Shown: piece by piece, positions 36,266 through 62,476 of the stretch
Position numbering within the stretch: the stretch's first letter is position 1
Layout of the letters: every line of letters starts with the position of its first letter
From: Apostichopus japonicus
Taxonomy: Eukaryota; Echinodermata; Holothuroidea; Aspidochirotida; Stichopodidae
NCBI RefSeq assembly: GCF_037975245.1
Contig: NC_092572.1
Location: forward strand, 14,264,269 to 14,328,268
Reading direction: 5' to 3'
Length of the DNA stretch: 64,000 nucleotides
The notes under the pieces: model-generated
Databases searched by the model: none
What the model was told of the DNA's origin: nothing
The model's input: only the letters and a program-made list of their open reading frames with translations
Position numbers and translations under genes: made by a program

Positions 36266-38974
36266 ATGGACACTGCAACGGTATTATGTATTGTGGGTCT
36301 TCTTCTGCGTATTTCTGGTGAGCTTTTAAACTAATTTTATATAATAACTTAATAATAGCAAGAGGGCATTCCATGGACTTGCATATGGACTTGCATATCC
36401 CATTCCCAAATAACACTGATTTCAAATTACAAAGTTTTTAATAACTGTTTTAATCTGGCAATATCGTTTTTGGAGTTAACAAGAATAAGCCGTTTGTGAG
36501 CCCTACACCGAGCAAGTCCAGAATCATACCTTTAGATGATACAATTTTTGTGAAATGTTCTATACACACACACACACACACACAGGACCAGGCCAGGCAC
36601 AGTACTGTACTTAGTTCCATAGTTTTAGTAATCATTTGCCCAGGCTTAATATAACAATAAGCTTCAGGTTAGTGTGCTACAGCTAGATCTATGTTTATTA
36701 TAGGCTAGGTATATGATCCTCATTTTCAATAGGCGGACTGGATACTGGTATATAAATACATGTGGCATTTAACCACGTGACCTTTGATCTCCGTTTTCAA
36801 ATCAATTACATATTTGATAGCATTTACCAAACGCACACACGGACACGTTTTGACCCCTCCCTCGATCATTTACTTCCGTTAACCATGGGGTACTCTACCA
36901 TGCGTGACCCCTGAGACTAGCTACTCAGGAAAATTATTCATAACAATGGTAATTGTTGCTATGGCAACTGAAGCAGCTGTATATGGCCCAACTGACAAAC
37001 CAACTACAATATATTATCCTGCCTATTGGATCGATGAGATCATAATTAAGTTAAAGTTAAATGAGTAATGTTATGAACATATATGATATGGAAATTTATG
37101 AAAGCAACCATCATCAATAGCTTGCATCTGGTTTTCGTGATGGAGTGTTATAAATAAGTCTTCCGTAATTGGCCATACACATAAAATTAATTCATTACTC
37201 CCCCATATCTGGTCCTCTATTCATACATCAATGTTGATTCCACAATTCGAGTTTCCATAAGATGGTTCCATAATAATACACAGATGATTAATAAATGATA
37301 TTACAGTCTGAGGGAATGACGTTACGATCTACATTAGGTTCACAACCGACGTACTCAACATTTAAATTTCAACGTGTATATTGAGTTGGTATTACGTTTG
37401 TTTCTAGTCGCAGTACCTACCCATTCATGGGATGAATCCGACCTCTCAACGGCTTCAGTAGTGGTGAAAGAAGGGGAATCTGCGGAAATATCTTGCATGT
37501 TGAAGGAAAGCAACGTTGCATATTTTTGGTTAAAAGGCGGATCTCTCGAAAATAGCACTGTAGTTGCCTCTTTCATCAGCGGCATAACTATAAACGACCC
37601 TGACGACCCTTTCACTGTAACAGAAAATGGAACCCTTATCATAAAGAAAGTAAGCCGTAATGATGAAGGAAATTATATATGCAGAGTTTCTTCGGAAGAG
37701 ATCAGTTGTCATGGTGACGTTTTTGTATTTGTACAAGGTAAGTTCACTGAATTATCATTTAAAGTGGTCAACGGGACAACGGAATCACAATATTACTTAA
37801 TGTAATAAGTTTGTTATCTTAATTTATACTCTAAACGCAAAAAGTTTGACGTTTCATTTTTTTGAAGAATTCACATGAATATGGTTGTGTCTAAATATGT
37901 AGCAAAAGGGATGTAACATATAATGTTTAGCATATGTTTTAATATGTGCAATTATTGTTTTATAAGATCTAAACAGGGTGAACAAAAGCTATACAGATAT
38001 TGTAGTGTGTTAATTACATAATATAACACTTATAAAAATGCAAGCAACTGTGTAGGCCAAGCTGTCATCGTAGCAATATGTTACAAACAGAACGATATAT
38101 TTGATGTCATATTTGCAAGCACTTTACAAAGTTTTCGTGGTTTAATGAAACATTTCAGACAATCAGCTCATAATCCCATCATTTCAATAGCTACAAACTT
38201 TGCATTTTCCTATAAAAAGAAAGAAAGAAAAACGAAATACAATATTACGGTTAGTAACGGTGCCTGTAATATCACAACCAATGCTATGTGGAATGAAGCC
38301 GGTGCGTAATTTTTGCCCCAGAACTCCCACACCAATGTTTATCTTCAAAGATGCTAGACTTCAGTTGTGATTATTTTATATTTAGCTGTCCTTCAAGACT
38401 TTCAGCTTACAATTGAATATTGCGAGCCGGAGAACAGTTGTGTGATCAGCACTGAATCCACGAAACCAACATCGTTGACATGTAAAGCCACCAATGCGTC
38501 ACCATCGATGAAATTAAAATGGTTTAATGGATCTCGTGAGATAAAGGATAACATCGAAGAAAACAGTTTAACAAAAGGGACATCTATAGAAATCTCAAGT
38601 ACAATAAAAGACGTCTACAAAGCTCCTTCTACGTTAACATGTCAAGCTGTAGATTTCAAGACAAGCAATGACGATGGAATGTTTGCTCATGTCCAATTCC
38701 GTACTTCTGGTAAGGAGTTCAATCAATATGATATTATCTTATCTCGACTTTCTACGTTATAGCATTCAATCGAATTTGTAATTGTACTCTTTAGTTGCCT
38801 TGCTTAGTTCAATGTTGATCCAATTCCTTTTAATTCCATTCTAATGTCATATTTTTTTCATTGTCTTCACATCCCCAGTTGCAGCTGCAGACATATCTCC
38901 AGGGTGGATTGTGACCGCCATTTTGTTTATTATAGGATTTGTAATTTTGTTTCTTATAGTTATCTTCATCACAG
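36266..38974 (+). other. Ectodomain and TM part of the Ig-kinesin gene
   Basis: Leader MDTATVLCIVGLLLRISG (residues 1-18), start in a good context (AAAAGATGG). Ig1, about residues 18-127: AEISCMLKE, AYFWLKGG, then GTLIIKKVSRNDEGNYICRV, a V-type pattern. Ig2, about 128-235: PTSLTCKATNASPSMKLKWF and STLTCQAVD, C2-like. TM, about 236-267: WIVTAILFIIGFVILFLIVI. The Ig1 acceptor could be TAG at 37405-37407 or CAG six bases on; both keep frame. Confidence 0.85.
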
Positions 38975-41900
38975 GTATGTAGCTAGTTTATTTGCTTTAG
39001 TTAATATTTTTGTTATTTGTACATGACTATTTCAAACACTCGAGGAGTCAAGTTATTAGTAAACTCGTACTCATGATTTGTGTGCTTCTATTAGAGAAAA
39101 AAATGAGAGGTGTTTTTTCGGGGTTATAATATCTGCACGTAAATTTTGATAGTTACATCAATAAAATTGGTAGGTTTGTGTTAACATAAACGTTCTCTAA
39201 TGGTTACAAATGATAGATACAATTTATACTAATTTTGCAGTGTGGCCAAAGCTTCGAAATGGGAATGATGTTAAAACACAGTAAGCAAGTTTCTTTTTTA
39301 CATTTTTATTAATACTATAATTTGTCAATTGCTTAATTGTTGCTGCAAAATTACTAAATTAAGCCCAATAAAATTGGACAAAATTGCATATTATTCATAT
39401 AATAAATCGATCAAGTTTCATACTAAGCAGTTTTAAGATCAGTAGTTATTGATCGCTGTTTGTTACCATTAGCATCACATTGAGTACTGTTCACCAACGG
39501 AAATTACTAGCTGGAAAGAATACATGCCTTTATTCTTTGCCGACCATAAACTCTGTGTATGTTCAGCTTAGCTAGTAAATTCATCTATGCAAAGCATATG
39601 GTTGGCCAAAAGTGCTTTAGACTTTCCCTATACAATCCTTCCTCTGACACCTTGAAATCATCATGTCAGTGATTTATATGGACTTCATTTACTTAACCAA
39701 AGATAAAATCATATGGAAATTTACAAGCCTCCTTTTGCATTTTGCAGGAACAGTGAAGAACGAGAATCCTTGCTGGTATGCGATTGCCAATAATATCTAC
39801 ATTTCGATATTGATATTCCATCTGGTACTCTCTTATTAGTATCAAGAACATATTCTTGATACGTTTAGACTGCGAAGCGATAACTTATCCTCCTTTTTTT
39901 CAAATTCCTACTTTTTCCTGCTCTGATTTTTTTTAAATGTTACCTTCTACGAAACGGCATAAAACCATAGAATACTGCTGAAATGATTAGCATGAGTGAT
40001 GAACTAAAGGCCTGATGGGATAATTAGACCCATGAATAAAGGTTTTGATTAGGAAATATAAATCACCTAATGTTCATAATTGAATCTAAAATGTTAGTCA
40101 TGATTGTTACATATCATTACGGATATCGACTAACACGTTTTTACTTGTTGAATGTTTAGTTTAGTTTTCGTGCCCAGGATCTATCTTGGGTAACTTTTCT
40201 CGAACATTATCTCAACAGATTTAAGAAATTAACTGTGTTCTTCTTTGTTTATTGCGCTAAAGGTATTTTATTAGACTAAAATTGAATTTTCAAGTAAAAG
40301 TTGGGGTCAATTGCCCGGTTACATTAATGAAGTCCTTATTCTTAGTTCAAAAGTCCTTCCAGCTGGAGGCCTGGTAATTACCAAGCGATGCGTAAAATGT
40401 ACACCTCGGTCGAACGTCATGTTTTATTATCTCCGTTTTCATAAGACAAAGCCAGCTTGGATAAGGTAATCGTAGGATAACACATCAAGTTAGATTTACG
40501 ACTGAACGTTTTTACACGCGTCGATTTCACTCGGATTACCTTCATATTTTATGTATTTATCCCAACATAAGGTACTTATTATTTGCGTCAGCATTCTTTT
40601 CCGTCAAATATAATGTGACGTTAAATCTGCAGAAATAGCAAAAAGGATTTAGAAGGAGTTATGTATTTCAATTCACAAGGTATGTCAACATGACCAACAT
40701 GGTTGAAAATAGCTGTTATTTGACAATATATATTCAAAATTCCAGCCAAAATGATTTATTTCAAGAGATACATATACCTAATTAACAACCTCTCAGCCTA
40801 GATATCACACTGGCGACCATATATTCTACGATAAAAATTCCCTAAGTTACGAATCAGATCAGTTTGTTTCTTTCAGTTCAGATGACATCTTTAATGTTAT
40901 TATATGTGTCTATCCTAGCATAAGGTTGTTTTAACTAACGTTATAATTTTTTATGCAACGTTGTTTAATTTCCACAGCGAGCAAAACAAGATTTGATAGG
41001 TAAAAATGCAGCACTGGAGGTAAGCATTTAAGTCACAAGTATAAGCAATTTATAGAACCAGGTCAAAGAGGATTAAGCACTCCAAACTATCGAGAGAAAT
41101 AATTGGTTTAAAGATGATATTAACCAACGAGTATTACAATGTACTTTGAAAGTATACGACGACGAACTGTGGCAGTACCATTTACACTACTAGCTTATGT
41201 GAATGAGAGGAGGTTGGCGGTTAGTATTGGGTACTAATACTATTAGGCACATCTACTTTAGATGTAGTAGAGTTAATTTTACTCAACCGAGAGATTTGTT
41301 TAAAGGAGCGTGGTCGTCATGAAATATCGACAGCAATTTATTTTTCAATTTTATCATTGGTTTAAGGTTTGTTGCCAAACATCATTGTTCATAGTGATGT
41401 AAGTGGTTTAAACAGGGGAAAAAAATGTTTTCAGTATTCAATGTCAAGCTTGTAACTTTAAAATATATATATTGCGTTGAATATTGCAGGTGACTGGTAA
41501 GATTGATTCTACTTTAGGTAAGAGAGAAGTATAAATGGTAGCTGACTACTCATTTCCAAGAAGTCTGCCGAACATATGTGTGCACAACACATGCGTTGTT
41601 GCCACAACGGCAATATGAAGTACATGCGCTACGTAATATGTACAGTTCTCATCGCACTTACCGAATCGGAACCGTTGTTGTGTGTGCTGTACGTGTGTCT
41701 ACAGACTTACAGTACAGGCAACCGGTTGACAACTCACCTTTAATTTATGATACTACATTCTACACCACCGCCGAAACATTCGCTCGAACGTATCTTTTGT
41801 GGATTTTGAGAAACCGTCTTTGAAAATTAGAAACAAGATGACATCTGAACTAACGTTACACTCATTTTCCTGTTGAGAACCTTCATGCTAATAACACCTG

Positions 41901-44900
41901 TCATAGACAGGTCAGCAATAGGACAAGGGGCCGAACAGGCGCTAGGTGTCCGTGAAAGGGACTAGGGGCCTTTTGCAATTTTTTATGAACGTGTGGGACA
42001 AAAACGAAAGCTTGCCAGAATAAACATATGGTAAGTTAATAACTGTCAACACAGCGTCTAGGTTTAGGTAGGCTAAGCCTGAATGTGTCATTATTCAGCC
42101 TATTATATTATTAACTGGTATAAGGCGAAGGGTAAGGGTGGTCTCGGCGTGCAAACGAATCGTCAAATATAACGCATGGTTGGGAGGGAGGGTGTCATAT
42201 GCACTTACAAATTGAACTTTAATGGACAAGGCCTTATTTCATCAGCAAAGAAATAATTTATTTATTATATCTATTAATATATTAGCCATATAGGCTAAGT
42301 CTAGTAAGTATATATATTGGCCTAACTGCCTATATAGTGAACCAAATAAAAGTAGGCTTAGGCTTGGGCGCTTGACATAAATAGGGTTAACGAGAATATG
42401 ACACTGCTTTGAAGAGTGAGGGCGATTAGGGGATGGTTGTGGGATTAGGGAATGGTTGTGACCAGCATGGCAAGCCCTGATACAAGCATGGTAATATTCT
42501 AGGACTATATGATTGAGCTGGTATAGTACTGTACATACATCAGTGGTTCTATACCGTGGGGACAGGGGGTTAGAGGATGGTTGTGACCAGCATGGCAAGC
42601 CCTGGTACAAACCTGATAAGAATCTAGTACTAAAGGGTTAAACTGGTATAGTACTGTACGCACAGCAGTAATTCTCTTTATATTTTTTCTGAATTTTTCT
42701 TTATACAGGACTTGGCAGACACTAGTGAGAGTGAGGTCTCATCAAATGAGCATACAGTAGGTGAAGATGATAGTGCACCTGGACAGCAGAATGTGGCTTC
42801 AAACAAACATGAATCTCAACTTCAGGTTGGCATAGCACACATTTTTCACTTAACTAAATATTTACATTACTTTGATGATCATAGACCACAAAAATCATAA
42901 CGTATGCAGAATATGATGCATATAATATAATGTAGTACGAGTTTATGTCACAATGTGCAACTGTGCTCAATGTTATTAGACCAAAAGTTGCCTAATTTTC
43001 TATTTATAATTTATGTTGTACCGAATTTTTATAACAAAAATATTGTCAGACATACATTGGTGATGATTGGGCCGAACCGACCCCCCCCCCCCATCCGCCA
43101 CTTCATAATCCAAAATGATTTATCCACACAATATATTCATTCAAAATATTGCAGTTTGATGAAAACTCAAACTCACAATACATTACCAGCTAAAACATTA
43201 ACATTCCAAACTATGTCAGATTTCAAGGTTTTAAGTAAATAAAGATTAGAAAATAATGGTATAGCTTCTGAGGAATGTCAGTGTTTGTGAAATCAAAGAA
43301 AACCACATTTTGTCTCTTTCAATGATAACCGAACTAGTTATCTATCAATATTACTGTTATGTTTTGTTACATGTGAATGGCTGCGATCGGAACTTGTCTG
43401 ACCTTACCTGGTTTATTTTGGTATGAAATCAAATGAAATGTGTGTGTTCAGTTCGTTCTTAAAGGGATATTCCAGTGGCTGAAAATGTGACATTTATGTA
43501 GATAAGATAAATATTCCATACTGTCAAGGTTTCTGTGTTAACAATTCCATCAAAATGCATCTTTTTCATAACTTTCATATGTGAAGAACTGAATGAAATA
43601 GCTTATAAATAGACAAAGCATTTGAATTTAAAGTGCCATGATTGGATCATTCACTCTGCTGTGTTGCCACATGCATTCACGAAATACCAACATTTCACCA
43701 TTCAGAGTGCTTTGAGGTAGTGAGTTTGACCCAAACTTACCCTGCATTTTTACTAGCAGCCAACTTGTCGGTTATCCCTTAATATGTTCATGATTGTACT
43801 GAAAGAAATAAGCTGTTTTCTATTCTCCAACAGATGTATGTACAAATATTGTCACGGGAACAGTTAGAGCAGGTTGCAGTAGAGCTTCTCCGCAGAAACC
43901 CACTTGCTCACAGTGATCTCACTGCGCCAATCCAGACTGAGGACGTGACTGCTTCTTGTGAAGTCACTTCATGGTGCAAATGTCTGCAATGTGTAGAGAT
44001 GCTAAGTGATGTGGAAAATAAGTGCTGCACAAACAGGGTGCAACAATGTGTAACCTACTCAGATGCATTTAGGGATAGTTGCCTTAATGCACACATCTTG
44101 GATTTAAATATGCGCATGCGAGAGGATGATCTTGCTTTGAAGAAAAGAGAACCAACAGGAACTACAGACATTATGCTTACAGAATTGTTTTTATTTACAG
44201 GAAGTTTGATCGCCTACGTAGAGGAAATAGAATGGTATTGCCATCCTGTTGCATCTCAAATATAAGGGAGAGATTTCCATCTGTTGATGGACAATATGTA
44301 GGATTCAATCCTGGCAACAACCTCATCGATTAAGAGAGAAACAGTTTGAAAGAAATCATATTGGCACAGTGATAGTGATAAATTTGCAGAAAGTGGTAAC
44401 TCAAGTGGGGTGATGGGGGCAAAGTGGGGAGGGGTATGGGGTTATGGGTACTCCAAGCAGTGAATCTTTCTTGAAGGCAAACGTAATTATTTCATGGTTT
44501 GTAAAAAGTTATTCAATCTTATCAACAACCTTTGGTAGAGTGATGGTCATTTCTGTTATAAAGTATATAGACAGTAGTAACCAATGTGGGATGATGGTGG
44601 GAGATGTGGGTGGTGGTGGGGGGGGGGGGTTACTGTTACTCCAAGCAGTGAAACATTGTTGAAGGTAAACTGATTATTTCATGGTTTGTGAAAGTGTCTA
44701 AGTCCTACCAACCTTTGGCACAGTTATGGTAATTTATTTTCGTATGTATATAGACAATATTAACCTATGTGGGATGATGGTTGGTTGGGGTGTGGGGTAA
44801 GGGGTTATTGTTACTCCAAACATTGTTGAAGGTAAACTGATTATTTCAAGGTAGCACAATAATGGTCATTACATTTTCTTAAGTTTATAGAGAGTGGTAA

Positions 44901-47900: not shown

Positions 47901-50900
47901 CAGAGCAACATGTTTGTAGGTATAAGTCTTCATCAACGTTGGTCTAATATGACTCCAGCAATTAAATAACACCAGGTAGGCAACATTATGCAAACTTGTA
48001 GTTAACTGGTGATCCACAGACAACTCCTACTAATGAAAATATATTTTCAACGAGAATATATCTTGTGTGGGAGGGAGAAACCTGGAGTCCGCTCTAAACA
48101 TTTTGAGAGGATACACTGCCATCAGATACAATCTTACAAGTTTCAAACTGAGAAATAAAGGTCTGGCACTACTTCAGTTCATAGTGGCAATCAATGCTGA
48201 TATTGTCCATAGCTAAAAACAAGTCCAAAAAGGGCCCTTGACAGAATAAAACCTACACGAAGAAGTTAGGCCTAAATAAGAGGCTTTTGCAACGAAAATT
48301 AGGCCTGAGCCTATTCCTAATCAATTATTTGAAAGGTTCTTGGAATACTGTATGTACTTGCTTCACCTAGATCGAGAGAAAGCAATTTAGTTTCAGTTAT
48401 AGGCCTTCATCAATGTATGACTTGTTCACCTGTGGATGGAAGACCTAGGCCTATCAAATGTTTGTAAATGTTTATGCATGCTGAAAGTTACCAGCAAAAA
48501 CGACTTGCAGTGAGATGACATTCATGGAAGTTTTTGACAAAGCCACAATGTGTTGAGGAAACCGTTAAGTCTTTGTCACCTATCCCTCGACTTTCTTTAA
48601 ATTCACCTCGTTTCGTCTCGAAGCCTTTTTTTTCTGTCGAGCCCACTCATCAATGGCGTCGGAAAGAAGAACCAATGTTGACCTCCGTTCTATTAATTTC
48701 CGCATTAAATATCTAATTTACAGAAGCCTTTTGTCAATAATACAGTCACTCCCTGCATTGTGTACTGGACTTTCCCTTTGCTGAATCTGTACATGTAGCA
48801 GACTGCATACAGGCGAAAGCTGCCGATGTTCGTCGCGGTGATTATTCGTAAAAGTACTGAGTGACGTCACCTTCGTGACGTCAGAGAAATGTACTGTACA
48901 AAACTCTGACGTCCAGAAGAAATATTTTAAAAACCACTACGTCACGACCACGCCTCTTTAAATATTACATTTATATTACACAAGCGCTACCACGTTATTC
49001 CTTCGATTCGATTTAATCTTTGTGTTGATTGGGATAAATAATTTCTGGTACTCATGAGATACTGAACTTATAAAACTGGTCATTTGCTTCACAAAAAGAA
49101 GTCATTATTCGCATAATGCAGGAATTTGTTCTTAATTAGAGACATGATTGCTTTTCTCTGATGATGATGTAGTGTTTCAGATCAGACTAAGTACGAGTTT
49201 AGTCAATTATTCATTAATGCTGTTCTTATACATTGGCCACACATATGAAAAAAATATGAGAATTTTAGGCTAGTAAAAATTACTTGACAAAGATAAATAA
49301 CGTAATCAGTAGGAAGGGCGGTGGTTCTCATTAAGACAAGACAAACAAAACGTATGTGACATTTATCGTTGATATTATGCTTTATCATAAATGTGCTTAC
49401 TGCCAAGTTAGCACCGTTTGTAATGTAAAGTTACCAAAATATGTACATCAATCGTGTCAGGACAATGGAGCACTAAACAATGCAAGATAACGTCGTTACG
49501 TTGTTGTTCACTTTTGGGAATGTTACCTAACCAATACATCTAAATTTATGGAAACTTCGAAGTTTTAATAGTGTTATTCAAGGCTTTACTAATTTGGGCC
49601 TATATAAGAAGATAACAGTTCATTTATTCATCGATGAATCATTTCATCATATTATCATTTCATCATTTCATCAATTCATAATTTAATCCATCCATCCGTC
49701 CGTCCGTCCGTCTTTCCGTCCGTTCGTCCGTTTGTCCGTTCATCCTTTCCTCCGTTCTTCCATCCATATATTCATACATCAATACATTTACACATTCATA
49801 CATTCATACATTCATCCATTCATCCAATCATCCATTCATCCAATCATCCAAGTATCCAATCATCCATTCATCCAATCATCCATTCATCCAATCATCCAAG
49901 TATCCAATCATCCATTCATCCAATCATCCATTCATCCAATCATCCAATCATCCAGTCATCCAGCCATTCAGTCATCCAGTCATCCAATTATCCAGTCATC
50001 AAGTCATCCAATCATCTAATCATCCAGTCATCCACTCAACCAGTCATCAAGCCATACATTCATGAATTCTTCCAGTCATACATTCATCCAGTCAATTAGT
50101 CAATTCATTATTTCATCAAATCATCCATTCATCAATTCATAATTTAGTCCATCCATCCGCCCGTCCGTCTTACCATCCGTTCGTCCGTTCGTCCGTTCGT
50201 CCGTTCGTCTGTTCATCCGTTCCTCCGTTCTTCCGTCCATCCATTCATCCGTCAATCCATCCATACATTCATACATCAATACATGTACACATTCATACAT
50301 TCATACAGTCACCCAATCATCTTGTCATCCAGTCATCCATTCATACAGTCATCCAGCCATCCAGTCATCCAGTAATCCAGTCATCCAATCATCCAGTCAT
50401 CCAAGCATTCAGTCATCCAGTAATCCAGTCATCCAATCATCCAGTCATCCAAGCATCCAGTCATCCAGTCATTTAATCATCCAGTCATCCAATCATCTAG
50501 TCATACATTCATAAATTCTCCCAGTCATACATTCATCCAGTCAATTAGTCATCCTTAGGTCATTCAGCCATTCTGTCATTCAAATATTCAGTTATTGTGG
50601 CATTCAATGTTGAATTAATAAATTAATTAATTAACCAAGAATGACGAAGACGATGACGTTCAGTAAATAGGGCTTTGTGGTGATTGATATTGTTTTTTAC
50701 ATTTTGGAGAGCAAAGACATCAAATTTAAAGATAAACGAATGCAAATCTTGAAATTGGAGGTAGAAAATTTGTCATGCACTTATATCTAATAGCTATGGA
50801 GTCATTAATTGTACTGTGGCATCCTCGAAATGTTTTATCTGAAAATTTTAACTTTTTCTTTACGTTTCAAGTGATAAATTAGAAGTTTTATGCCAAAGTA

Positions 50901-53900
50901 TAACGTGCATTTTATTTAACTTCTAAATGTGGATTTTTTCATCTACAGTTGTACATGTTTTTACCAAACAATCGACGTTTTATCTCCAAAAAATGATAGT
51001 TTATATCATAATTTGGACGTTTTTTCTCACATTTACGACAAAAGAATATACGATGTTATATTTCAAACTTATTACGTTTTGTGTTATTCTTCCAACGTTT
51101 AATGTGTCAATCGAAAGTTTAATGTTGAAATACCTCCATGTATACATTTTATTATATCAATTCAGAAATTATATCAGCAGAATTACTTTTCTTATGACAG
51201 GAGGCGTCACAGAATAAAGACGATCAAATTAAAATGAAGAATGAAGAGATCACAAAGCTGAAGGTAAGTTACGTAACAGATGATTACCAATTGAGGTATA
51301 CTTAGTTCGGATTTGTTCGACTGGAAACAAGAAATCCTTTAATGAGGCCGAATTCTTCAGCTGGTAAATTGATATGTATGAATTTGGCGTTTGAACGCTT
51401 TGTAGAAGCAATATCGAAATACTTTATGTTAATTAAATCTAAACTACACCCTTTATATTCGACATCATATCATATTGTCGGAAAAGAAGAAATAATATCA
51501 AAGAAAGATAGATACGAACCATCATCTTGTTCAATCAAACTTCTTGTGCTAGAAATATGAACAAAAATACTAAAATGAAGCAACTTTGAATACGTCAGGT
51601 TTAATTGGAGAAATTAAATTTACGTAATCAGATGCCGAGAGCTCAACCATGCAGTCTTTAATACATCATAGATATTACATATCATGTAGAGATAACTATT
51701 CAATATATTCAAGATAACTTAACATTGAACGCAAAGAGCATAAAGAAACTGGACTAAAAATTGTTTTTTTTTCATTATAATATATTTTAAAGTAGCTTGA
51801 GTCGTCTGTCTAAAATGTAATTAGTATAGACTCTCAAAATATTTTAGAGCGTTTTACTTTTTAACCATGTGCGCATGATATAACCGCTTCCATAGTTTGG
51901 TTGAAACTGAAAATGGTTAATTTATTTTTCTAAACGGGTTCCAAATTCGTACTATACTACAATTTGTTATAGAGGAGAAAATGCAAAGAACCGTAACCTG
52001 GCAGTTGATCAAATTTATGTTTTGCTACCTACCCAGGAAACTCTTATTAAGGCAGATGCAAAAGAAGAGATCATACACGTCACCGCTGAGGTAAGAATAA
52101 TGTTTTGAGCGATATGCTTATCGCTTACAGATTTTGAATTTAATATTTAAGCAAACTTTTCGGAGAATCCGCAGAGCCACACTGTCGAATTAAAGATATG
52201 TACAAGAAAAGTAATACGGTATAACACTTAAATAATTTAGATGTGTAATCAACATGTCGTCCTCGAGCCTGTTAAGTAATTATCGCAACTCATGAGCAAT
52301 ATAAAAATAGGATAAAATATGTCTCTGTCTGTGATATTTCCATTTTCCAGGCAAAAATGAAGGAAGACACCAGAGAAATACAGTTAAGAGATCAATCTAT
52401 TGCCAGCATTAAGGTGAGCAATTCCACGGTAGATTTAAAAACGTTTCTTTGCTGCGTTTATCATAAACATTTAGTTGCATACTGATAATAGCTGGTTGCA
52501 AGTATAACAATTCTTCAATCGATGTTTCGTATTGTGTTGACTTAACAATAGGCCTACCTTCGTTTTATCATGGCTTTAGAATCTTATATTTAGGAGGAAT
52601 CGGTCCATTAAAACCATTAACCATTTTAAGGAAGTTGGAACAGGAATGGTTTGAGATTACCATAAATATTTCACGGAAAAAGGACTATATACATAATACA
52701 CCGTGCATTGTTCTCATATATATAATACCCTTATGATGAGATTTTCAATAACGTTACGTTAGACTTTCAACAAATGTAAGTAGATAACAAATAACTCATA
52801 ACTCATAACTATAAGGGGAAACAGGTTACCTATTAAGAGAACGGGACAGCATCGATGCAAAAATGCAAACATTGTGTAATCGAAGTCGTCCTCAAGACTC
52901 TAATGTAACTATCGTATCTCATGAGTTATACAGACAATGACCAAATATGTCTCTGTTTGTGATATTTTCCTTTTCTAAGGCAAAAGTGCAGAAACAAGAT
53001 GAAGAACTGCGGGTTAAAGATCAAACCATTGCCAGCATGAAGGTGAGCAATACCACGGCAGATTTAAAGTCGTTTTTTGCTCTGTTTATTATAAATATTT
53101 AGTAGCGTATTGATAATAGTTGGTTGTATAACATTTCTTTAATCACTAAACCTTACCTTAATTTTATCAATACATTGGATTCCTTTATATATACGGTAAT
53201 GGGTCTACGAATCAACATTTAAAGGCCAGTGCATCGCCAACTGCAGAATTTTGGCATTAAATATCCCAACAGAGACAACATAAAAATAACTCCATGGTCG
53301 AAAACCATGCAACGTTAAATACATGTTTCATTTAGCTAACAAACGGAATCGTATGTGTCACGAAAGATTTTTTGGTATATTTTACAGGGTCATATTATGG
53401 GAATGAGTTTAAAAGTGTAAAACTATCGAGTGACTCCTGCATAATCTTTCCACAAATGTACAGTTATAATACGTTATGATAGGAAAACTGTCGAATCTAT
53501 ATAAATTGTTCATATAATAAAACAAAATTGTATACATTAGATTTCACAATGGTTTACGTTACAGTTTAAGAGTACCAAATTATATGTGCGTTTCTCTACT
53601 GTAAATGTATAATATCTTCATTAATATGCAAGCAGAAACCAAGAAAAGCCTTCAAATGAATATGAAGTCCAATGACATCATATGTTTTTCCTTATATATA
53701 TATATATATATATATCATACATTAATGCATTGTCATATTTCCGTTCATCGTAGACTACAGAACAAGTTAATGAGAAAGAACTAAACAAATGTAAACAGGA
53801 TATGGCTGATTTGAATGTAAGTAAAAATAGTGTATATTATCGTGAACAGTACAAAACCATTATAAGATAGTTTGGAAAGGAATGGTTTGAGAATACCATA

Positions 53901-56900
53901 CATATTTGAAGGAAAATGGACTATATTCATAACGCAATGTGCATTGTTCTCGTTATTTTATATAATACATTTACAATAAAGTTTTCAATTATGTAACGGT
54001 ACACTTCCAACGAATGGAAGTAGATAAAATAACTCTAACTATTAGGGGCAAAAAGGTTACCTGTTTAGAGAAGGGGAAAGCATCGAATAAGATGGGTGAT
54101 GCATAAATGCAAACATTGTGTAATCGTTAAGTCGTCCTTAAGTTTATAAAGCAATTATCGTATCTCATGAGTAATACAGAAAATGACCAAAAGTCTCTGT
54201 TTGTGATATTTTCCTTGTTCTAGGCAAAAGTGCAGAAACAAGATGAAGAACTGCAGGTTAAAGATCAAATCATTGCCAGCATGAAGGTGAGCAATACCAC
54301 GGCAGATTTAAAATCGTTTATTGCTCTGTTTATTATAAATATTTAAAAGCATATTGATAATAGTTGGTTGTAAGTATAATATTTCTTTAATCACTAAACC
54401 TTACCTTATTTTATCAATGCGTTTCCTTTATATATGCGGTAATGGGTCTACGACTCACCATTTAAAGGCCAGTACATCGCCAACTGCAGAATGTTGGCAT
54501 TTAAATATCACAACAGACAAAACATAAAAAACTTTATGATCGAAAACCAAGCCACGTTTAATACATGTATCATTTAGCTAACAAACGGAATCGTATGTGT
54601 CGCGAAAGATTTTTTGGTATATTTAACAGGGTCATAGTATGGGAATGAGTTTAAAAGTGTAAAACTATCGAGTGACTCCTACATAATCTTTCCACATATA
54701 TGTACAGTTATAATACGTTATGATAGGAAAGCCGTCGAATCTATATAACCATATAATATAACAAAATTGTATACATTCGATTTCACAATGGTTTACGTTA
54801 CAGTTTAAGAGTACCAAATTATATATACGTTTCTCTACTGTAAATGTATACTATCTTCATTAATATGCAAGCAGAAACCAAGAAAAGCCTTCAAATTAAT
54901 ATGAAATCCAATGATATAATATGTTTTCCCTCATAATTATAATACATGAAATCATTGCAATATTTCCGTTCATCGTAGGCTACAGAACAAGTTAATGGGA
55001 AAGAACTAAACAAATGTAAACAGGGTATGGCTGATTTGAATGTAAGTAAAAATAGTGTATATTATCGTGAACAGTACAGAACCATTATAAGATAGTTTGG
55101 AAGGGAATGGTTTGAAAACACCATACATATTTGAAGGAAAATGGACTATATTCATAATGCAATGTGCATTGTTCTCATTATTTTATATCATTACATTTAC
55201 CATAAAGTTTTCAATCATTTTACGGTACACTTCCAACAAATGGAAGTAGATAACAAATAATCCTAACTATGAGGGGCAAAAAGGGTACTTGTATAGGGAA
55301 AGGAAGCATCAAATAAGATGGGTGATGCATAAATAATGCAAACATTGTGTAATCGTTAAGACGTCCTCAAGCCTGTTAAGTAATTATCTACCTCATGAGT
55401 AATACAGATAAAGACCAAAAATGTCTCTGTTTGTGATTTTCCCCTTTTTCTAGGCAAACATTGTGTAATCGAAGTCGCCCTTAAGACTTTAAAGTAATTA
55501 TGATCGTATCTCATGAGTTATATAGACAATGACCATATATGTCTCTGTTTGTGATATTTTCCTTTTCTAAGGCAAAAGTGCAGAAACAAGATAAAGAACT
55601 GCAGGTTAAAGATCAAACCATTGCCAGCATGAAGGTGAGCAATTCCACGGCAGATTTAAATCGTTTCTTTGCACTGTTTATTATAAATATTTAATAGCAT
55701 GTTGATAAATAATGGTTGCAAGTATAACATTTATTTCATCACTAAACCTTACTGCGTTGGATTCCTTTATCAAGGCGGTAATGGGTCTACAAATTACCAT
55801 TAAAAGGCCAGTACATAACCAACTGAGGAATATTGACATTAAATGTTACAACAAACACATCAGAAAAAGAAATTTTATGATCGACAACTTAGTCAAGTTA
55901 AGTACATGTATAACTTAACTATACTCTCGTCAGGTTTCACATACTATGGTTTATGTATCGGTTGTCTTCGGATGGAGTAGATTCGTGAAAATATTGAATA
56001 AACTACATATTTTACCATGCCGAGCAGCATATTCTAGAGTATGTCACTCTCCCTCTCTAAACATTTCCATAGCAAAAGAAGGGCACATTGCAGAAGAAGC
56101 TCTCGAGTCAAAATAATTCCCTTTGTATATATACGCTTCTTTTGCATATTGTACATTGATTTGAAGACATTAACTAGCGCATGGGCCAAATTAAATTGTT
56201 TGTTAACAAATAAGGCTTCAACTCTGATAATATGTCAGAATGTTTGTAAGAAAAATACCTTGTCATAATTGTGTAATTTCTTTCTTAAAAAATAGTATAT
56301 AAAAAAAAGAGTATGAGTGTGTAGGTAAGAGTAGGTTTCGGTTGGCTGAATGCATCACATCGTTCACAGAAACGTTTTCTTTTTAACCATTTTGGGATTA
56401 ATATATCCTCTGTTCGCTGTTTTATAACCTTCAGGTCACGAGTAGCTAGATTACGAATGATTAAATAATCGTATCAATGTGACTTTTAACATTTTAGATG
56501 TTGAGTCTGACAGCATTCTATGCTTTGAATATACTTTTTGATTAATGTTTAGGATCTGGAAAAAAAGTCCCTTGAAATTAATACTCAACACAAACAGGCA
56601 ATGGTAAGTTTAAAAATGTTAATAACATACACGACTTTGGTGATTACATGTTGAAGTATAAATATGGATACGATTCGAGTTAAAATATCATTAAATTGAT
56701 TCATAGTTAAAATAAACAAAGTATGGCAAAATGCATGAAATTATTCTTGGTTGTTCACACGTGAATCATGATACCAATATTTCTGATATTTGGAATGTTC
56801 CACTGACTTTGTTAGTTATAGCGACTAAGATGGTAGATCACTGCACTGGTTTATTAGCAACGTATATTTTTCATGTCCTCTCTTCGTGGGAGGAGTAGGT

Positions 56901-58342
56901 TGGGAAAAAAAATAAATTTAATCATCCATTTTACACGTATTTGTCTTTACCTACCCATTTAAAGAAAACAAATGATGTATAAAATAGTCCATAGAAATGT
57001 GTGAACATTTATAATTTGTAAGGAAATGTTTATCGTATAACTTATACCATCGGCCATCATATTATCACGGTATTTATATGGAAATCCAGTTCATTTTTAA
57101 GTTAATATTTGGATTCTTGTTAACATTTGATCCATGCTTCAATTTAGGAAAAGGAACAACATATCAAAGACACTGTGAAAGCATTGGAAAATAGAGAAAA
57201 TAAGCTGAAGGTTTGTAATAGATTGTTTGCTTTTGACATGTCACTCCCTTTTGTCAACGAAAACTACGAGCTTTACGAAATGTAAAACTGGATTAATCCA
57301 AAAATATATCGAACTACTTACACCCAGATTATATCAATTAAACAATAAAATATGGATCGCGCACTAGCATACTTTTATTCACAGAATGGATCTGTATCAG
57401 TTTCAGTTTAATAGTAATTATTCGTTGATATTTACAAAGACACGAGTTATTCATCGCGACAAGTAGAAATAGTATTCCTGTTATTTAGACACTTCTTTCC
57501 GATGTGATGGCAATGCTTATGGTTAAAATGTCTTACTAATTATTATTATTTTTTTTTGGTAATGGGTTTAAAGAAAAAACCTTCTCTTCATTCTCCACCC
57601 AAATGCACGATTTATTTCCATTACTGTTTAAATGCTAGGCAAAATGGATTACAATAACTCCGAAGTACTGATATATTCTGGGATTTGTATTCCAACATAA
57701 AGTTCTCCCAACTTTTCTATAGCTATGCCGGGTAAATTAACTCACACACCTGGAGATAATTATTAAAAGAACCTGGTACATGTTGCATTGTTTAGTTCCT
57801 TTATATTTTAAGTTCCTTTATATTTTTAGGATTTCACTTGCAAGATGTATTATGTAATGAAAAAATGTTCACTGTAAATGTAATGCAATTCTATCAAACG
57901 ATATATCATATGTGTAGGTCTATTATATTTATCAAATAAAAATTTTCATAACATCAAACTTCTTTCAGTTAACTGTACATCCTTCCAGAAAAAAATGCAC
58001 TTCTTTAATACTGTTTTCAGAATTCTTACAGGGAACTTGAAAAATCGGAGAGAGCCTTTCGAGCAAAGAAAATGGGCGAACTGGTAACATGATTGGGAAT
58101 ATCATTACAAATTAATAAAAAAAAATGGAGCAAGCACACTGATGTTTCTTGAAACCTAACATTCGTCGACAAGGACACAGATAATGTTCCATCTGTAACT
58201 TACAGAACTGTTTTTGTAGAAGATTAGGTCATGTTACACATAACAAATGCAATGATTTATTCACAAACAGTGATGTCAATATATTTGACAAGATGTTCTC
58301 GTTCGGAGCAACTGTATTTTAATTCCCGTTGTGAATATTAAC

Positions 58343-58395
<53 letters not shown>

Positions 58396-58435
58396 ATATA
58401 GCCCATATAGAGCCTATACATATATAAATAAATAA

Positions 58436-58468
<33 letters not shown>

Positions 58469-61400
58469 TTATATATATCATCGAGACCATTGCTTCAGAT
58501 ATTAAGTTATATTTTCTCATTTGCTCTAAAAGCACATTACAAAAGGTTTTTGCGGAATACGTCCTTTAAAAGGCAGTAAATCTCTTACGGTAAAAATTGA
58601 CGGAACACAACCTTCCATCGCACCACATGTGAGTACCTAATTTCATTAAAATTATCTCATAATAACAAAACATTGAATACAACTCGCATATTTGAAATAA
58701 AGCTGTTGCAACTATATAGTGACGGACTTACACGATGAATCATGATGCTTGAACACATTTCTGATAAAGATTTTTTTCTTTACTTTAAAATCTCCAAGAA
58801 CGTTGATATCGGAAGTATTTTAAGCTAACGTATGTAAGAAACAAACCCTGAATTGCTCTGTTCTTATTTTCTCTGTCAGGGCAAGGAGTCAAAATTCAGT
58901 CATATCTTCAATGTTGGCGACAATGTTCGAGAAACCTTCGAGAAAATGAGTGACTTCGTAGAGGTGCGTTCTTTGTTTTAGTGCTAAGCTCTTAACGTAT
59001 TTTTGTTTCATTCCATTGAAGGGGTGGGGGAGGAGGGGAGGTTAGGAAGCGCATAAGTGTCATCAATTTACAAAGTCATTTTAACTGATCAAAATAAATG
59101 TTGTAATAAGTTCTTGCATTGATAAAGCTGAGGTAGTTATACAATTTGCAAGATGTAGTGCAATAAAAAAATGCACTAATACATTGATATAACATTCTAT
59201 GAAATGTTTCATCTTAAATATACTTTATTTACGCTTCGTGGAAGATGTATACTACTTATCGTGAACCTCATGTAAACATTAAGCACTCAACCACAAAATT
59301 CATGCTCTTACATTCGTTAGAAGCATATAAGTGATGACATCAATATGATTCCGACAAAAAGAGGTGTAACTATACACTATAAGACTGTAAAGTTGTCACT
59401 CTAAATGTCCTTTTTTCATTCTCATAGAATGCCATTGATGGAGGTCAATCATGCGTTATCGCTTTCGGTAATTCAAGGCGTCATGACCAAATGAAAACTA
59501 TGTATGGGGAGAATTCAATTATACCACTTTCATTTAAGAGAATATTGGAAAGATCGAAAGAAATGAAACACAGAACTTACAAGGTTTGTAATATCAGATA
59601 TAGCCATTTTCATGTAAATATAACTGTGAAAAACATTCATCACATACAGTAAGTAAAACATTCAAAGTGATAGTTTGCCAGATAGTGTGGGTTAAACTGT
59701 AACGAAACATAATTTATTATCACATTACTAATAAATATTCATCACAGTAGTAATGTAAACATATTAATTGACTAACACTTAAACAAATGCGACATTTATA
59801 AATGGCCATTCGGTACTTTCCCCATGGCAAGTGATTATAATATCATTCATTGCGAGATATTATGTACGTCCCTTCCTGTATTTATTACAATAGCCATTGG
59901 TTTACTAACAGACTGGAATATCAATTACATTATAAACTTATCTTATCAATATTCACCTTAGGTAAGCGTTCAGGCAAGACTTGTTCATGCGCTGGAGGAC
60001 TCACACGGTGAAATTTTCATCTTTAAAAGAAAACAAGATCTCGTTGATAAATGCATAAATCCGACAGATTTAAAAGCTATACATGTGAATGACGAAGAAA
60101 CTGTAAGTCTCAAACCTCATTTTTCTTGTCTTGTGTAATCCAACTTGAAAAAAATCCATACTTTTACTATCCTTTGCAGTACCTGAAAGCCGGTATTAAA
60201 AATGGTGTTTTTGTTTTCAGGTTTAAACGTAAGATGTGTTATCGGTTGAAATATCTCAACTTTTAGTGGAATAACAGTTCTTTCAGTAGCCCTCGAGGAG
60301 ATACATTTTAAATTTACATCCGTTTCATTTAAGCGAAGTTCGTCTTTGGTATTCACAATTTTCTCTCATATTTCCTCCCAAAGCCAGAAGTCAGTAATTA
60401 TCATGTTTGAAATGTGTGTAAAACTGAATGGGAATGTAAAACTGAAAGAAAGTCTTTTCTTCTGTGCTCAGTGTTTGTTAGTTAACATGATACGATTTTA
60501 CAAGAATTAAATAAATGTAAGGACAATTCTAGCGTTTTTTTTAGAAGCCGCTTAAAAGGTGACCCATTTGCTGTCTCTTTTATCATGTCAACAGATGGAA
60601 CAGCTGCTTAAAGATCACATGGAATCCCAGAAAGAAACAGACACAAAACACGATTGCTTCGTTCAGTTCATCATTAACACAACAGAGGATGGCCAAGAAA
60701 CAGCAAGAACGGGTAAAGTTTTTATTGATATGTGTACACTTATACGTAAACCTTTCAGAACTACTGGGGAAAATGCGGTTAGCTTAAACAAAACATTAAA
60801 ACATTTATATGTTAATCACTTTAGCTGTAAAGCTGTAGTATTTAAACTTTTTAATTGCTCAGATTTTACTTCGACAATATGAGCAGAGATAAAGTTTTTA
60901 AAGAAAGAGTCTTTGTTAACTTTTTAAATGCAGTCAGTAAATAGTAATGTTTTTAGGAATGCTTAGTGCTAACAGTTATATTAGTTTTGTTGAAAACAAG
61001 GCACTTATTGTATACAGCATATTCGCCTGTTTAGAAAAGTATGCCAACATGATGTATAACATAGTATCTACAACTATCTTACGAACATTTGATAAATAAA
61101 AGCTTACAACATATATAATTACACCTGTAAAAATGGAAAACAAAACATCGAATGTCAAATTGTTTTCTTGTTGAAAATGTCATTTAAAGAATAAGAGGTG
61201 CCCTTCTTCATATTCGAAATAAAACCCCCAATAAACTCTATGTTTCCTACAACTACAAGTTACCCTTTGGGTTAAGATCAGTAACATGTTTAATTGCAAC
61301 TGAATATGTGCTACATGAAGTACAGGTGATGTATTTCGTCAGGAACTTTGATGGTCGTCAAATTCCCATAACCAGAATACGAATTCTCCTTACCCTGATC

Positions 61401-62476
61401 ACAAGTTAGTTGTCTCTGTTTTCCACAGGTAAGATTACTTTTGCCACACTCTTCGGACTTGAAATGATCAAGAAATGTTTCTTGGAGACTAGTAAAACTA
61501 AACTTACTCAGTACTTATCGAAGATTATTCGAGATCCGAACAGCAAAAGGTACGTCCCCCCCCCCCCCATAGCTTGGTAAATTCGTAACAAAATCATAGC
61601 AGGAAAGGAATAAATATGGCATAATTAAGTTCAAATTTATCTTTTTTCTTTCTTTTTTGACGTTAATTGGTGACAATTACTGGTCAAATATGATATAATT
61701 TTAAATTTCTAATTTATATGAGTTAACAGCAACGTTGACTAACTCCAAGGTTTCCCTTTTAAAATCTTATTGTGCTGACCTTTTCTAAAGACCTTTTACA
61801 AGGTCAATATTCACCAACTATTGTAATATCTTTGATGCCAAAGGAGCACATGTTCATTCCACGTTTTCTTATCACTTGATAGTAGATTGAATTTAACACT
61901 GTTGCAAGTATCAAATACAATTGCTTAATTCATACTGACAAACATATTTTTTAATGGTAGCAGTTGTCGATCAAAAAAGGAGTTGCCCATCGTCATTTTT
62001 TAAAACTGTGCATTTATGGAATTTATTGAGCTATCATATCATGGTGCGATTATGCAATTGTGTAATTATTTTAACATTTTCAAGTTATCAACTTAGTTTA
62101 ATGATTTCTGTCCGATGAACCATGAAATGGTTTCTTTTATTTTCTTCCCGTAATTGTACAACCTCAGTTTATTAATTGTGCACCTCGATGAAGAAAAGGA
62201 TGACTTGAAGGAAATTTTAAAGGTAACAGGTCAGGTAGGTAACGATTGAAGATTTTGTACTAAGGAAATGAGTATAGGAATGATTTTCCGACAGTTTTCG
62301 GTAAAGTAATTAATAATATTACCCATTAACTTGCTCCATCTTTAGTGTATGTTTTATAAAAGTATATTTTCAGTTTATCTGAAGTGGGAAAATGTCATTT
62401 TGGTAACGTATGGCGTTTCTTTTTGTTCCAGATCACAGAGGAAAGCACAAAGAAATCCAAAAATATCCGGAAGTGA
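36266..62476 (+). CDS. Ig receptor - transmembrane - coiled-coil - pseudo-kinesin fusion protein
   Basis: Twenty-six exons form one frame of 2412 nt (803 aa). Signal peptide 36266-36317; Ig 37408-37737 and 38386-38709; TM 38879-38974; linker 39241-39280, 39748-39775, 40978-41019. Coiled coil 51201-51263, 52037-52090, 52351-52413, 52980-53042, 53754-53816, 54224-54286, 54979-55041, 55572-55634, 56553-56603, 57148-57210, 58021-58083. Motor-like 58533-58628, 58880-58963, 59428-59583, 59962-60102, 60595-60712, 61429-61549, 62168-62234, 62432-62476 (TGA). Ectodomain exons are phase 1-1, the two tail exons shift to phase 0, and all coil exons are 0-0, so the parts join only this way. The 5' part has no stop codon or poly(A) signal of its own, and the 3' part no start that I can find. 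The joining intron (41020-51200) is long and holds a transposon and a satellite, so RNA evidence is needed. Predicted: single-pass membrane protein with a cytoplasmic dimerising stalk and an ATPase-dead kinesin head. Confidence 0.72.
39241..41019 (+). other. Cytoplasmic linker exons of the Ig-kinesin gene
   Basis: Exon 39241-39280 gives VWPKLRNGNDVKTQ, 39748-39775 gives NSEERESLL, and 40978-41019 gives RAKQDLIGKNAALE. ERESLL fits the acidic di-leucine sorting consensus [DE]xxxL[LI]. The last exon is already helix-forming and continues naturally into the first coil exon at 51201 (EASQNKDDQIKMKNEEITKL). Confidence 0.65.
42709..44333 (+). CDS. P2X7-type ballast-domain protein, probably frameshifted
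   Basis: Exon 42709-42825 (phase 0, acidic and Ser-rich: TSESEVSSNEHTVGEDDSAP) splices to 43834-44333. The second exon has REQLEQVAVELLRRNP, then TSWCKCLQCVEM and NKCC (zinc-type cysteines), CLNAHILDLNMR, RHYAYRIVFIYRKF, VLPSCCISNIRERFPSVDGQ, YVGF and TAA. This order is that of the cytosolic C-terminal (ballast) domain of vertebrate P2X7 receptors, which occurs as stand-alone proteins in many invertebrates. There is no channel part. Between LALKKRE (44140-44160) and RHYAYR the frame changes by one base, so a 1-nt deletion (or assembly error) breaks the gene. The first exon with the start codon is not identified. Confidence 0.7.
44389..45000. repeat. Tandem repeat, about 183-bp unit, four partial copies
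   Basis: Related blocks start near 44391, 44574, 44757 and 44893 with GTGGTAACTCAAGTGGGGTG-like sequence. They continue with G-rich stretches, TTACTCCAAGCAGTGAA and AAGGTAAACTGATTATTTCA. They separate the two converging genes of the transposon. Confidence 0.8.
45430..46335 (-). pseudogene. Decayed transposase-like gene (RNase H-type family of marine animals)
   Basis: Reading the minus strand downward: MISSWKCEDGHVCGK (about 46310); VAGDARTD; GHCALYCTYSFMDEASSKML; HLEVVDFREVG; ERIGF; CEVVTDAHVLIKALL (about 45840); YGEKNLFKKLVNVANTKQNT; DLHLWISAIRNHFWYSAKEC; LLHHLVGEHQW; HHLCKNDHSKP. This order matches a multicopy protein family of fish, corals and echinoderms with GDGR..SPG.CA.Y.TY, VTD.H and RNHFWY motifs, which I take to be a transposase-like RNase H fold (memory-based). 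At least two in-frame TGA codons and several frameshifts show it is dead. Its upstream part (46400-48700) is too eroded for me to assign. Confidence 0.6.
46400..48957. other. Right part of the TTAA-flanked element; no intact gene
   Basis: Presumably the 5' region of the minus-strand transposase-like gene. A minus-strand open stretch at 47424-47128 (98 codons) could be an eroded exon, but I recognise no domain. The last 100 bp is rich in TGACGTCA-like palindromes (48862-48885), often seen near transposon ends or promoters. Confidence 0.35.
49620..50580. repeat. ATCC-type satellite, two related blocks
   Basis: Degenerate array of (T/A)CATCCA and CGTCCGTC tetramer-based units. The arrangement (TCATTTCATC, then CCATCCGTCCGTC, then ATACATTCATACATTC, then CAATCATCCATTCATC) occurs at 49620-50050 and again at 50100-50560, so a larger unit of about 470 bp is duplicated. 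The open frame through it (His-Pro-Ile-Ile-Gln repeats) is not a gene. Confidence 0.85.
51201..58083 (+). other. Coiled-coil exon array (stalk) of the Ig-kinesin gene
   Basis: Eleven phase-0 exons, nine of them exactly 63 nt (21 aa, three heptads); the others are 54 and 51 nt. Sequences are rich in E, K, Q and D with hydrophobic residues at heptad spacing, e.g. AKVQKQDEELRVKDQTIASM. Three exons (52980, 54224, 55572) are near-identical, and two others (53754, 54979) form a second near-identical pair. Flanking introns are also alike, so the array grew by tandem duplication. Expected role: parallel dimerisation, as in kinesin stalks. Confidence 0.78.
52330..55910 (+). repeat. Tandem segmental duplications carrying coil exons
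   Basis: A unit of about 1.24 kb holding two coil exons (52980 and 53754) is repeated with exons 54224 and 54979. A partial third copy carries exon 55572. Introns share long blocks such as GGTGAGCAATACCACGGCAG and ACAAACGGAATCGTATGTGT. The exon at 52351 heads an older, more diverged copy. Confidence 0.85.
58346..58480. repeat. (TA)n microsatellite in the Ig-kinesin gene
   Basis: TA-rich runs (58346-58400, 58436-58479) with short interruptions lie in the intron just before the first motor-like exon (58533). Confidence 0.85.
58533..62476 (+). other. Degenerate kinesin-14-like motor domain
   Basis: About 276 aa against about 330 in active kinesin motors. Order matches a kinesin head: KGFCGIRPLKG (beta1, normally IRVFCRVRP); KFSHIFNV..NVRETFEKMSDFV (usually F.FD.VF..); SCVIAFGNSRRHDQMKTMYG where active motors have AYGQTGSGKTYTM; IIPLSFKRI (GIIPR); KHDCFVQFIINT at the SSRSH strand; GKITFATLFGLEMIKK where DLAGSE is expected; KTKLTQYLSKIIRDPNSKSL (DSKLT..L..SLGGNSKT); LLIVHLDEEKDDLKEILK (the end of the head). 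The P-loop, switch I and switch II signatures are all absent and the segment between DLAGSE and DSKLT is shortened. The C-terminal position after a coil fits kinesin-14. Yeast Vik1 is a known precedent for a nucleotide-free motor homology domain. Confidence 0.8.

Follow-up and report, generated by a model that had tools for sequence, protein, structure and literature searches.

Does the sea cucumber Apostichopus japonicus encode a membrane receptor with immunoglobulin (Ig) domains whose cytoplasmic end derives from a kinesin, or do two neighboring genes lie side by side? This question is raised by a 64,000-nt stretch of its genome (hereafter the window; NC_092572.1, positions 14,264,269 to 14,328,268 of the forward strand), for which an initial annotation had proposed a single chain of exons running from two Ig domains through a membrane helix (TM) and a coiled coil into a kinesin-14-like head. 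We rebuilt every exon base by base and obtained a 26-exon model (window 36266-62476, + strand) in which all introns are GT-AG and whose spliced length of 2400 nt comprises 799 codons and a TGA stop at 62474-62476. The proposed exon chain, with compatible phases, a length that is a multiple of three and a proper stop, was thereby borne out. The same holds for the order of parts on one strand and in one frame, namely two Ig domains, a membrane span, a heptad stalk of 238 residues and a kinesin-scoring head, and this order recurs at six more loci (copies 2 to 7, with the window gene as copy 1). Exon phases in copy 1 run 0-1, 1-1, 1-1, 1-1, 1-2 and 2-0, remain 0-0 across stalk and early head exons, and close with 0-1, 1-2, 2-0 and 0-stop in the head.

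All exons lie on the + strand. Exon 1 (36266-36317) holds the start codon and, judged by eye, a signal-peptide-like sequence (MDTATVLCIVGLLLRIS), and resembles the first exons of copies 2 and 4. The two Ig domains recognized by Pfam are encoded by exons 2 (37408-37737; V-set/Ig_3) and 3 (38386-38709; the second Ig_3 stretch), both of phase 1-1, followed by a membrane span (GWIVTAILFIIGFVILFLIVIFIT; hydrophobicity assessed by eye) in exon 4 (38879-38974; phase 1-1). Directly after this span come the basic residues of exon 5 (39241-39280; phase 1-2; juxtamembrane sequence WPKLRNGNDVKT), which has phase 1-2 counterparts in copies 2, 3, 4 and 5. Exon 6 (39748-39775; 28 nt, phase 2-0) was rebuilt as NSEERESLL, and a 28-nt phase 2-0 exon likewise follows the membrane part in copies 2, 3 and 5, its equivalent in copy 4 being read as 55 nt.

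The stalk begins in exon 7 (40978-41019; 42 nt, phase 0-0; RAKQDLIGKNAALE), identified by heptad scoring and matched by 42-nt counterparts in copies 2, 5 and 6. It continues through exons 8-12 (51201-51263, 52037-52090, 52351-52413, 52980-53042, 53754-53816) and 13-17 (54224-54286, 54979-55041, 55572-55634, 56553-56603, 57148-57210), all of phase 0-0, and ends with the neck in exon 18 (58021-58083; phase 0-0; NSYRELEKSERAFRAKKMGEL), which has 63-nt counterparts in copies 2, 3 and 4. Together, exons 7-18 encode 238 residues, or 34 heptads, and most of them measure 63 nt, i.e. exactly three heptads. When scored singly, 10 of the 12 stalk exons favored the same heptad register, and the mean heptad score of stalk windows exceeded that of all 500 shuffles. 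A scan of 291 kb for 42- or 63-nt exons of coiled-coil type returned 19 on the + and one on the - strand; 17 of the 19 sit between a TM exon and a kinesin-like head, although these TM-to-head intervals account for 62.5 kb (21%) of the scanned sequence (binomial p 5e-10, a value that is too small because the copies are relatives). Within the stalk, the exons at 52980, 54224 and 55572 (AKVQKQDEEL type) are near copies of one another, as are those at 53754 and 54979 (TEQVNEKELN type); therefore, the rod was lengthened recently by duplication of exon pairs. The introns of these repeated pairs (window 52980-55634) are similar, too.

The head occupies the last eight exons. Exons 19 (58533-58628) and 20 (58880-58963) cover its first strands, with KGFCGIRP aligned to IRVYCRVRP of KIFC1, and exon 21 (59428-59583) the P-loop region (AFGNSRRHDQMKT versus AYGQTGSGKTFT in KIFC1), which has no Walker A motif. 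The switch I region, without SSRSH, falls into exons 22 (59962-60102) and 23 (60595-60712; phase 0-1), and the switch II region, with ATLFGLE versus VDLAGSE, into exon 24 (61429-61549; 121 nt, phase 1-2). The last aligned strand (SLLIVHLDEEKDDLKEILK) is in exon 25 (62168-62222; phase 2-0), and exon 26 (62432-62476) adds ITEESTKKSKNIRK and the TGA stop.

Pfam matches of the spliced 799-residue protein were Ig_3 (E 1e-13; two stretches), V-set (4e-11) and Microtub_bd (4e-6; 27.2 bits versus a cut-off of 27), the Kinesin family itself not being among them. With the 292-residue neck and head as sole query, Microtub_bd (7e-8; 32.9 bits) and Kinesin (1.4e-7; 31.3 bits versus a cut-off of 29.3) were both returned. 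The best PDB matches of the copy 1 head were kinesin-14 proteins (KCBP, 5e-8; Kar3 relatives, 2e-6 to 3e-6); caspase and de novo-design entries (6 of 27 rows, E 0.096 or weaker) were taken as chance. The copy 5 head matched Kinesin at 7e-22, and its best 20 PDB rows were all kinesin-14, while that of copy 2 fell below both Pfam cut-offs, Kinesin and Microtub_bd (24.1 and 15.6 bits). In genome-wide searches with the Kinesin and Microtub_bd profiles, no exon of copies 1-4 was among the matches.

Where does this head come from? The genome contains an intact KIFC1-like gene on C7 (GQTGSGKT, SSRSH and DLAGSE present; best PDB match KIFC1, E 4e-98). In an alignment of this gene with the copy 1-5 heads, four introns coincide in column and phase across the six sequences (78/0, 137/0, 244/1 and 315/2), representing four of the six KIFC1 head introns; for the first and the last one the phase agrees, with positions 3-7 columns off in the poorly aligned ends. 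A further intron (198/0) is found in all five receptor heads and is absent from the KIFC1-like gene, and the switch II exon measures 121 or 124 nt in the receptor heads versus 214 nt in KIFC1. At the two comparable sites in a kinesin-14 gene on C13, no intron was visible. Thus, judged by intron positions and nearest relatives, the ancestry of the head is KIFC1-like (kinesin-14), and the common columns and phases indicate that it represents a 3' piece of such a gene. Since the heads are 16-26% identical to KIFC1 and 14-41% among copies 1-5, the fusion event would be old. In the simplest history, the 3' part of a KIFC1-like gene was probably captured once together with its introns, fused to an Ig receptor, and later duplicated.

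The features that make a kinesin a motor are largely gone. At the position of Walker A (GxxxxGKT), copy 1 has GNSRRHDQMKT, and the motif is also absent from copies 2-4; copies 5 (GAPKSGKT) and 6 (GTPKSGKT) have kept it, yet without both switch motifs, SSRSH (switch I) and DLAGSE (switch II) being absent from copies 1-6. Besides, about 30 residues are lacking in the five aligned heads from the exon that encodes loop 11, alpha4, loop 12 and alpha5, the exact place of the deficit depending on the alignment. Loop 11, alpha4 and loop 12 form the main microtubule face of kinesin. Given the loss of all three motifs together with the shortened switch II exon, it is very unlikely that the copy 1 head acts as a conventional motor, and it may not bind microtubules at all. 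The initial annotation had placed a kinesin-derived head directly under a recognition receptor, which stands as regards order and ancestry; a head at work in that position does not follow, as the motor motifs are missing.

We therefore favor, with a probability of roughly 0.8, a small family of Ig receptors that cross the membrane once and carry a non-catalytic tail of kinesin origin. Part order, family and motif loss are evident from the genomic sequence itself; from these we infer one transcript, the membrane topology, dimerization and a docking function. The two Ig domains would lie outside the cell and bind a putative ligand, and the cytoplasmic part would form a dimeric coiled coil ending in the KIFC1-derived neck and head. 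If straight, the 34-heptad rod would extend over about 35 nm (from the textbook coiled-coil rise). As its nucleotide site is lost and its microtubule face incomplete, the head would most likely serve as a docking module, whose partner might perhaps be a catalytic kinesin-14, as for Vik1/Cik1 with Kar3, or the microtubule lattice itself. A docked head could then link the clustering of receptors to vesicle traffic or the cytoskeleton.

The alternative that survives best has the head still binding microtubules, as a passive, non-stepping anchor for the receptor or its vesicle. It draws on the Microtub_bd match of copy 1 and those of the copy 3 and copy 5 heads, both above the cut-off, as well as on the described role of Vik1/Cik1, non-catalytic kinesin-14 heads too, as a microtubule foothold (PMC4338441). 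However, the shortening by some 30 residues affects just the loop 11 to alpha5 exon in all five aligned heads, and we regard such an anchor as unlikely, if worth keeping in mind.

The receptor with a non-catalytic tail presupposes that both halves belong to one gene, a point on which the remaining loci are informative. All six further loci lie on the chromosome that carries the window (C12); five have open heads and one is decayed. Copies 2-4 lie within 300 kb downstream of the window on the same strand (C12:14.42-14.63 Mb): copy 2 with Ig at 14418152, TM at 14419630 and head at 14434821-14439695, copy 3 with Ig at 14476533, TM at 14476996 and head at 14493338-14500741, and copy 4 with Ig at 14619088, TM at 14620707 and head at 14623009-14627573 (all C12, +). 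Copies 5 and 6 (C12:21.85-21.91 Mb), the latter with an open first Ig exon, form a second cluster with the decayed copy 7 (cluster span 21.85-21.92 Mb), so that two clusters with the same part order are 7 Mb apart. The search yielded no final exon for copy 2 or copy 3, and no complete first Ig exon for copy 3. On the - strand, the TM-to-head interval of copy 3 contains long Glu-Lys simple repeats (C12:14486230-14488030). Copy 7 (C12:21917301-21919700, -) could be mistaken for proof of one compact gene; we rejected this, as its second Ig exon contains stops, it has an internal deletion, its stalk and first head exon are missing, and its Walker A reads GKN instead of GKT.

The recurrence of the Ig-TM-stalk-head order at six more loci renders one gene much likelier than two neighbors, and for copy 1 we consider it highly likely that the Ig receptor and the kinesin-derived part are joined. 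The competing explanation, in which exons 1-7 form an Ig receptor and exons 8-26 a degenerate kinesin, same-strand neighbors that were duplicated jointly and are spliced separately, would preserve the order equally well, joint tandem duplication of two genes sufficing. Its focus is intron 7, which spans about 10 kb (after 41019, before 51201) and contains other open stretches. One of them, at window 43783-44265 (+), is P2RX7_C-like (E 2.8e-6), and its presence on the same strand makes a gene boundary within this intron possible; an acidic exon-like stretch precedes it (window ~42710-42824) and matches no Pfam family. Window 49638-50514 (+) is repetitive and open in all three + frames, with Ser/His/Pro/Ile runs, and resembles a tandem DNA repeat rather than a gene. 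Upstream of exon 8 (51201) there is an in-frame stop 6 nt away with no ATG between, and an in-frame ATG lies inside the exon at 51234; judging by sequence, a separate start is thus possible, from which a shorter protein could begin. Besides, the DNA similarity between copies 1 and 2 (window 36266-41089 versus C12:14416478-14422195) stops just past exon 7, by about 70 nt. Yet exon 7 has no stop, is of phase 0 and encodes coiled coil; donor sites are present in it as in its counterparts, and an exon that would end the receptor was not seen. One heptad register runs through the coiled coil from its beginning in the receptor part into the head part. In copy 4, the TM exon and the first head exon are only 2.2 kb apart, and no start codon occurs there ahead of residue 15 of the neck exon. 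Finally, we inspected 14 of the window's stalk and head exons: 13 of them have either no in-frame ATG upstream before a stop or, in two of the 14, one that lies 33 nt upstream of an internal exon. Two separately spliced neighbors are therefore improbable.

The Ig exons of copies 1 and 2 are 94% identical at the DNA level, with a dN/dS of 0.23 for the Ig part, whereas their heads are only 27% identical. Ectodomains hence seem to have been exchanged between, or copied onto, different tails, and the end of similarity at 41089 could possibly reflect recombination in intron 7 or the edge of a module. One might also read the contrast between 94% Ig DNA identity in copies 1 and 2 and 14-41% head identity among copies, along with the decay of copy 7 and the lost motor motifs, as a sign that selection acts on the receptor part and the tail is baggage drifting toward loss. 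Against this, the heads of copies 1-5 have all retained open frames, splice sites and phases despite such divergence, and copies 5 and 6 show no indels across eight head exons and a head dN/dS of 0.53 (23.3 of 177.5 synonymous and 48.7 of 671.5 other sites; Fisher p 0.02), an estimate that rests on this pair, copies 1-4 being too diverged. Decaying baggage is accordingly a touch less probable still than separate genes. With six further loci arranged alike, a lone chance alignment of unrelated exons can be dismissed.

Relatives of the two Ig domains are abundant, with 78 matches listed (window copy included) and large clusters at C12:6.37-6.78, C12:13.99-14.23, C12:20.54, C12:24.87, C19:10.46-11.12 and C7:15.5-15.8 Mb. 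Near these relatives (C12:6.37-6.78, C19:10.46-11.12, C7:15.5-15.8 Mb and others), single-protein and Pfam searches, which also miss known diverged copies, revealed no heads. Another multi-Ig gene lies upstream in the window itself (22302-24620, +), with at least three open stretches scoring as Ig (Ig_3 2e-6, 2e-4 and 3e-7, the first two below the Ig_3 cut-off). It is these Ig clusters alone that hint at any immune role. Elsewhere in the assembly, a 31-kb unplaced contig carries broken COX1 pieces (C29:14745-31219), which points either to mitochondrial DNA within the nuclear set or to misassembly of a mitochondrial contig. The mitochondrial contig proper shows the gene order COX1, ND4L, COX2, ATP8 and uses AAA at Asn positions of COX1, both features being typical of echinoderms.

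How does this architecture compare to known systems? With Ig-superfamily receptors (V-set plus a second Ig, single pass) it shares the ectodomain and the 1-1 exon phases. The tails of such receptors generally carry a signaling motif or a kinase, in place of which we find a kinesin-derived rod and head. With KIFC1/HSET/Ncd it shares the head family, the placement of this head at the C-terminus, behind coiled coil and neck, and the four introns of same column and phase. KIFC1, however, is a soluble motor with Walker A, SSRSH and DLAGSE, all three lost from the copy 1 head, which in addition has a shortened switch II region and is preceded by Ig domains and a membrane span. We know of no receptor class with a motor-derived tail and, for this reason, rate the combination of an Ig receptor with a kinesin-derived tail, on the literature, as new, every single domain being already known. 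No report of a receptor with a kinesin part was found in the open-licence PMC literature, and a term search of the available text of the Holothuria glaberrima genome preprint (PMC13228809) gave no mention of kinesin or immunoglobulin.

The closest functional parallel may be Vik1/Cik1, described as non-catalytic partners of the yeast kinesin-14 Kar3, whose coiled coil likewise terminates in a kinesin-14-like head that lacks a functional nucleotide site (PMC4338441). Vik1/Cik1 are soluble and have neither Ig nor membrane part, and a pairing of the sea cucumber head with a catalytic kinesin is a proposal by analogy. In A. japonicus itself, the membrane receptor AjNLR-new was reported to act during phagocytosis on microtubules and actin, which makes a wiring of receptors to microtubules plausible; going by its description, it has NACHT outside and Ig inside, recruits Fidgetin, contains no kinesin part and is not related to copy 1 in sequence (PMC13133943). 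More broadly, the family could constitute a new class of surface receptors, with Ig ectodomains in one polypeptide with a kinesin-14-derived head, arisen from one capture of a KIFC1-like 3' part and shaped by tandem duplication and recombination between ectodomains and tails, whose ligand recognition would act on microtubules without a separate adaptor; this wider proposal we put forward tentatively, as less probable than its negation.

If transcribed as read, copy 1 would encode a receptor whose cytoplasmic end derives from a molecular motor and has no signaling motif. It would show that a receptor can capture a motor gene, introns included, and members that keep Walker A would allow the loss of motor function to be traced stepwise inside one genome. 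The family would likewise offer a handle on whether surface recognition in echinoderms is wired to microtubules.
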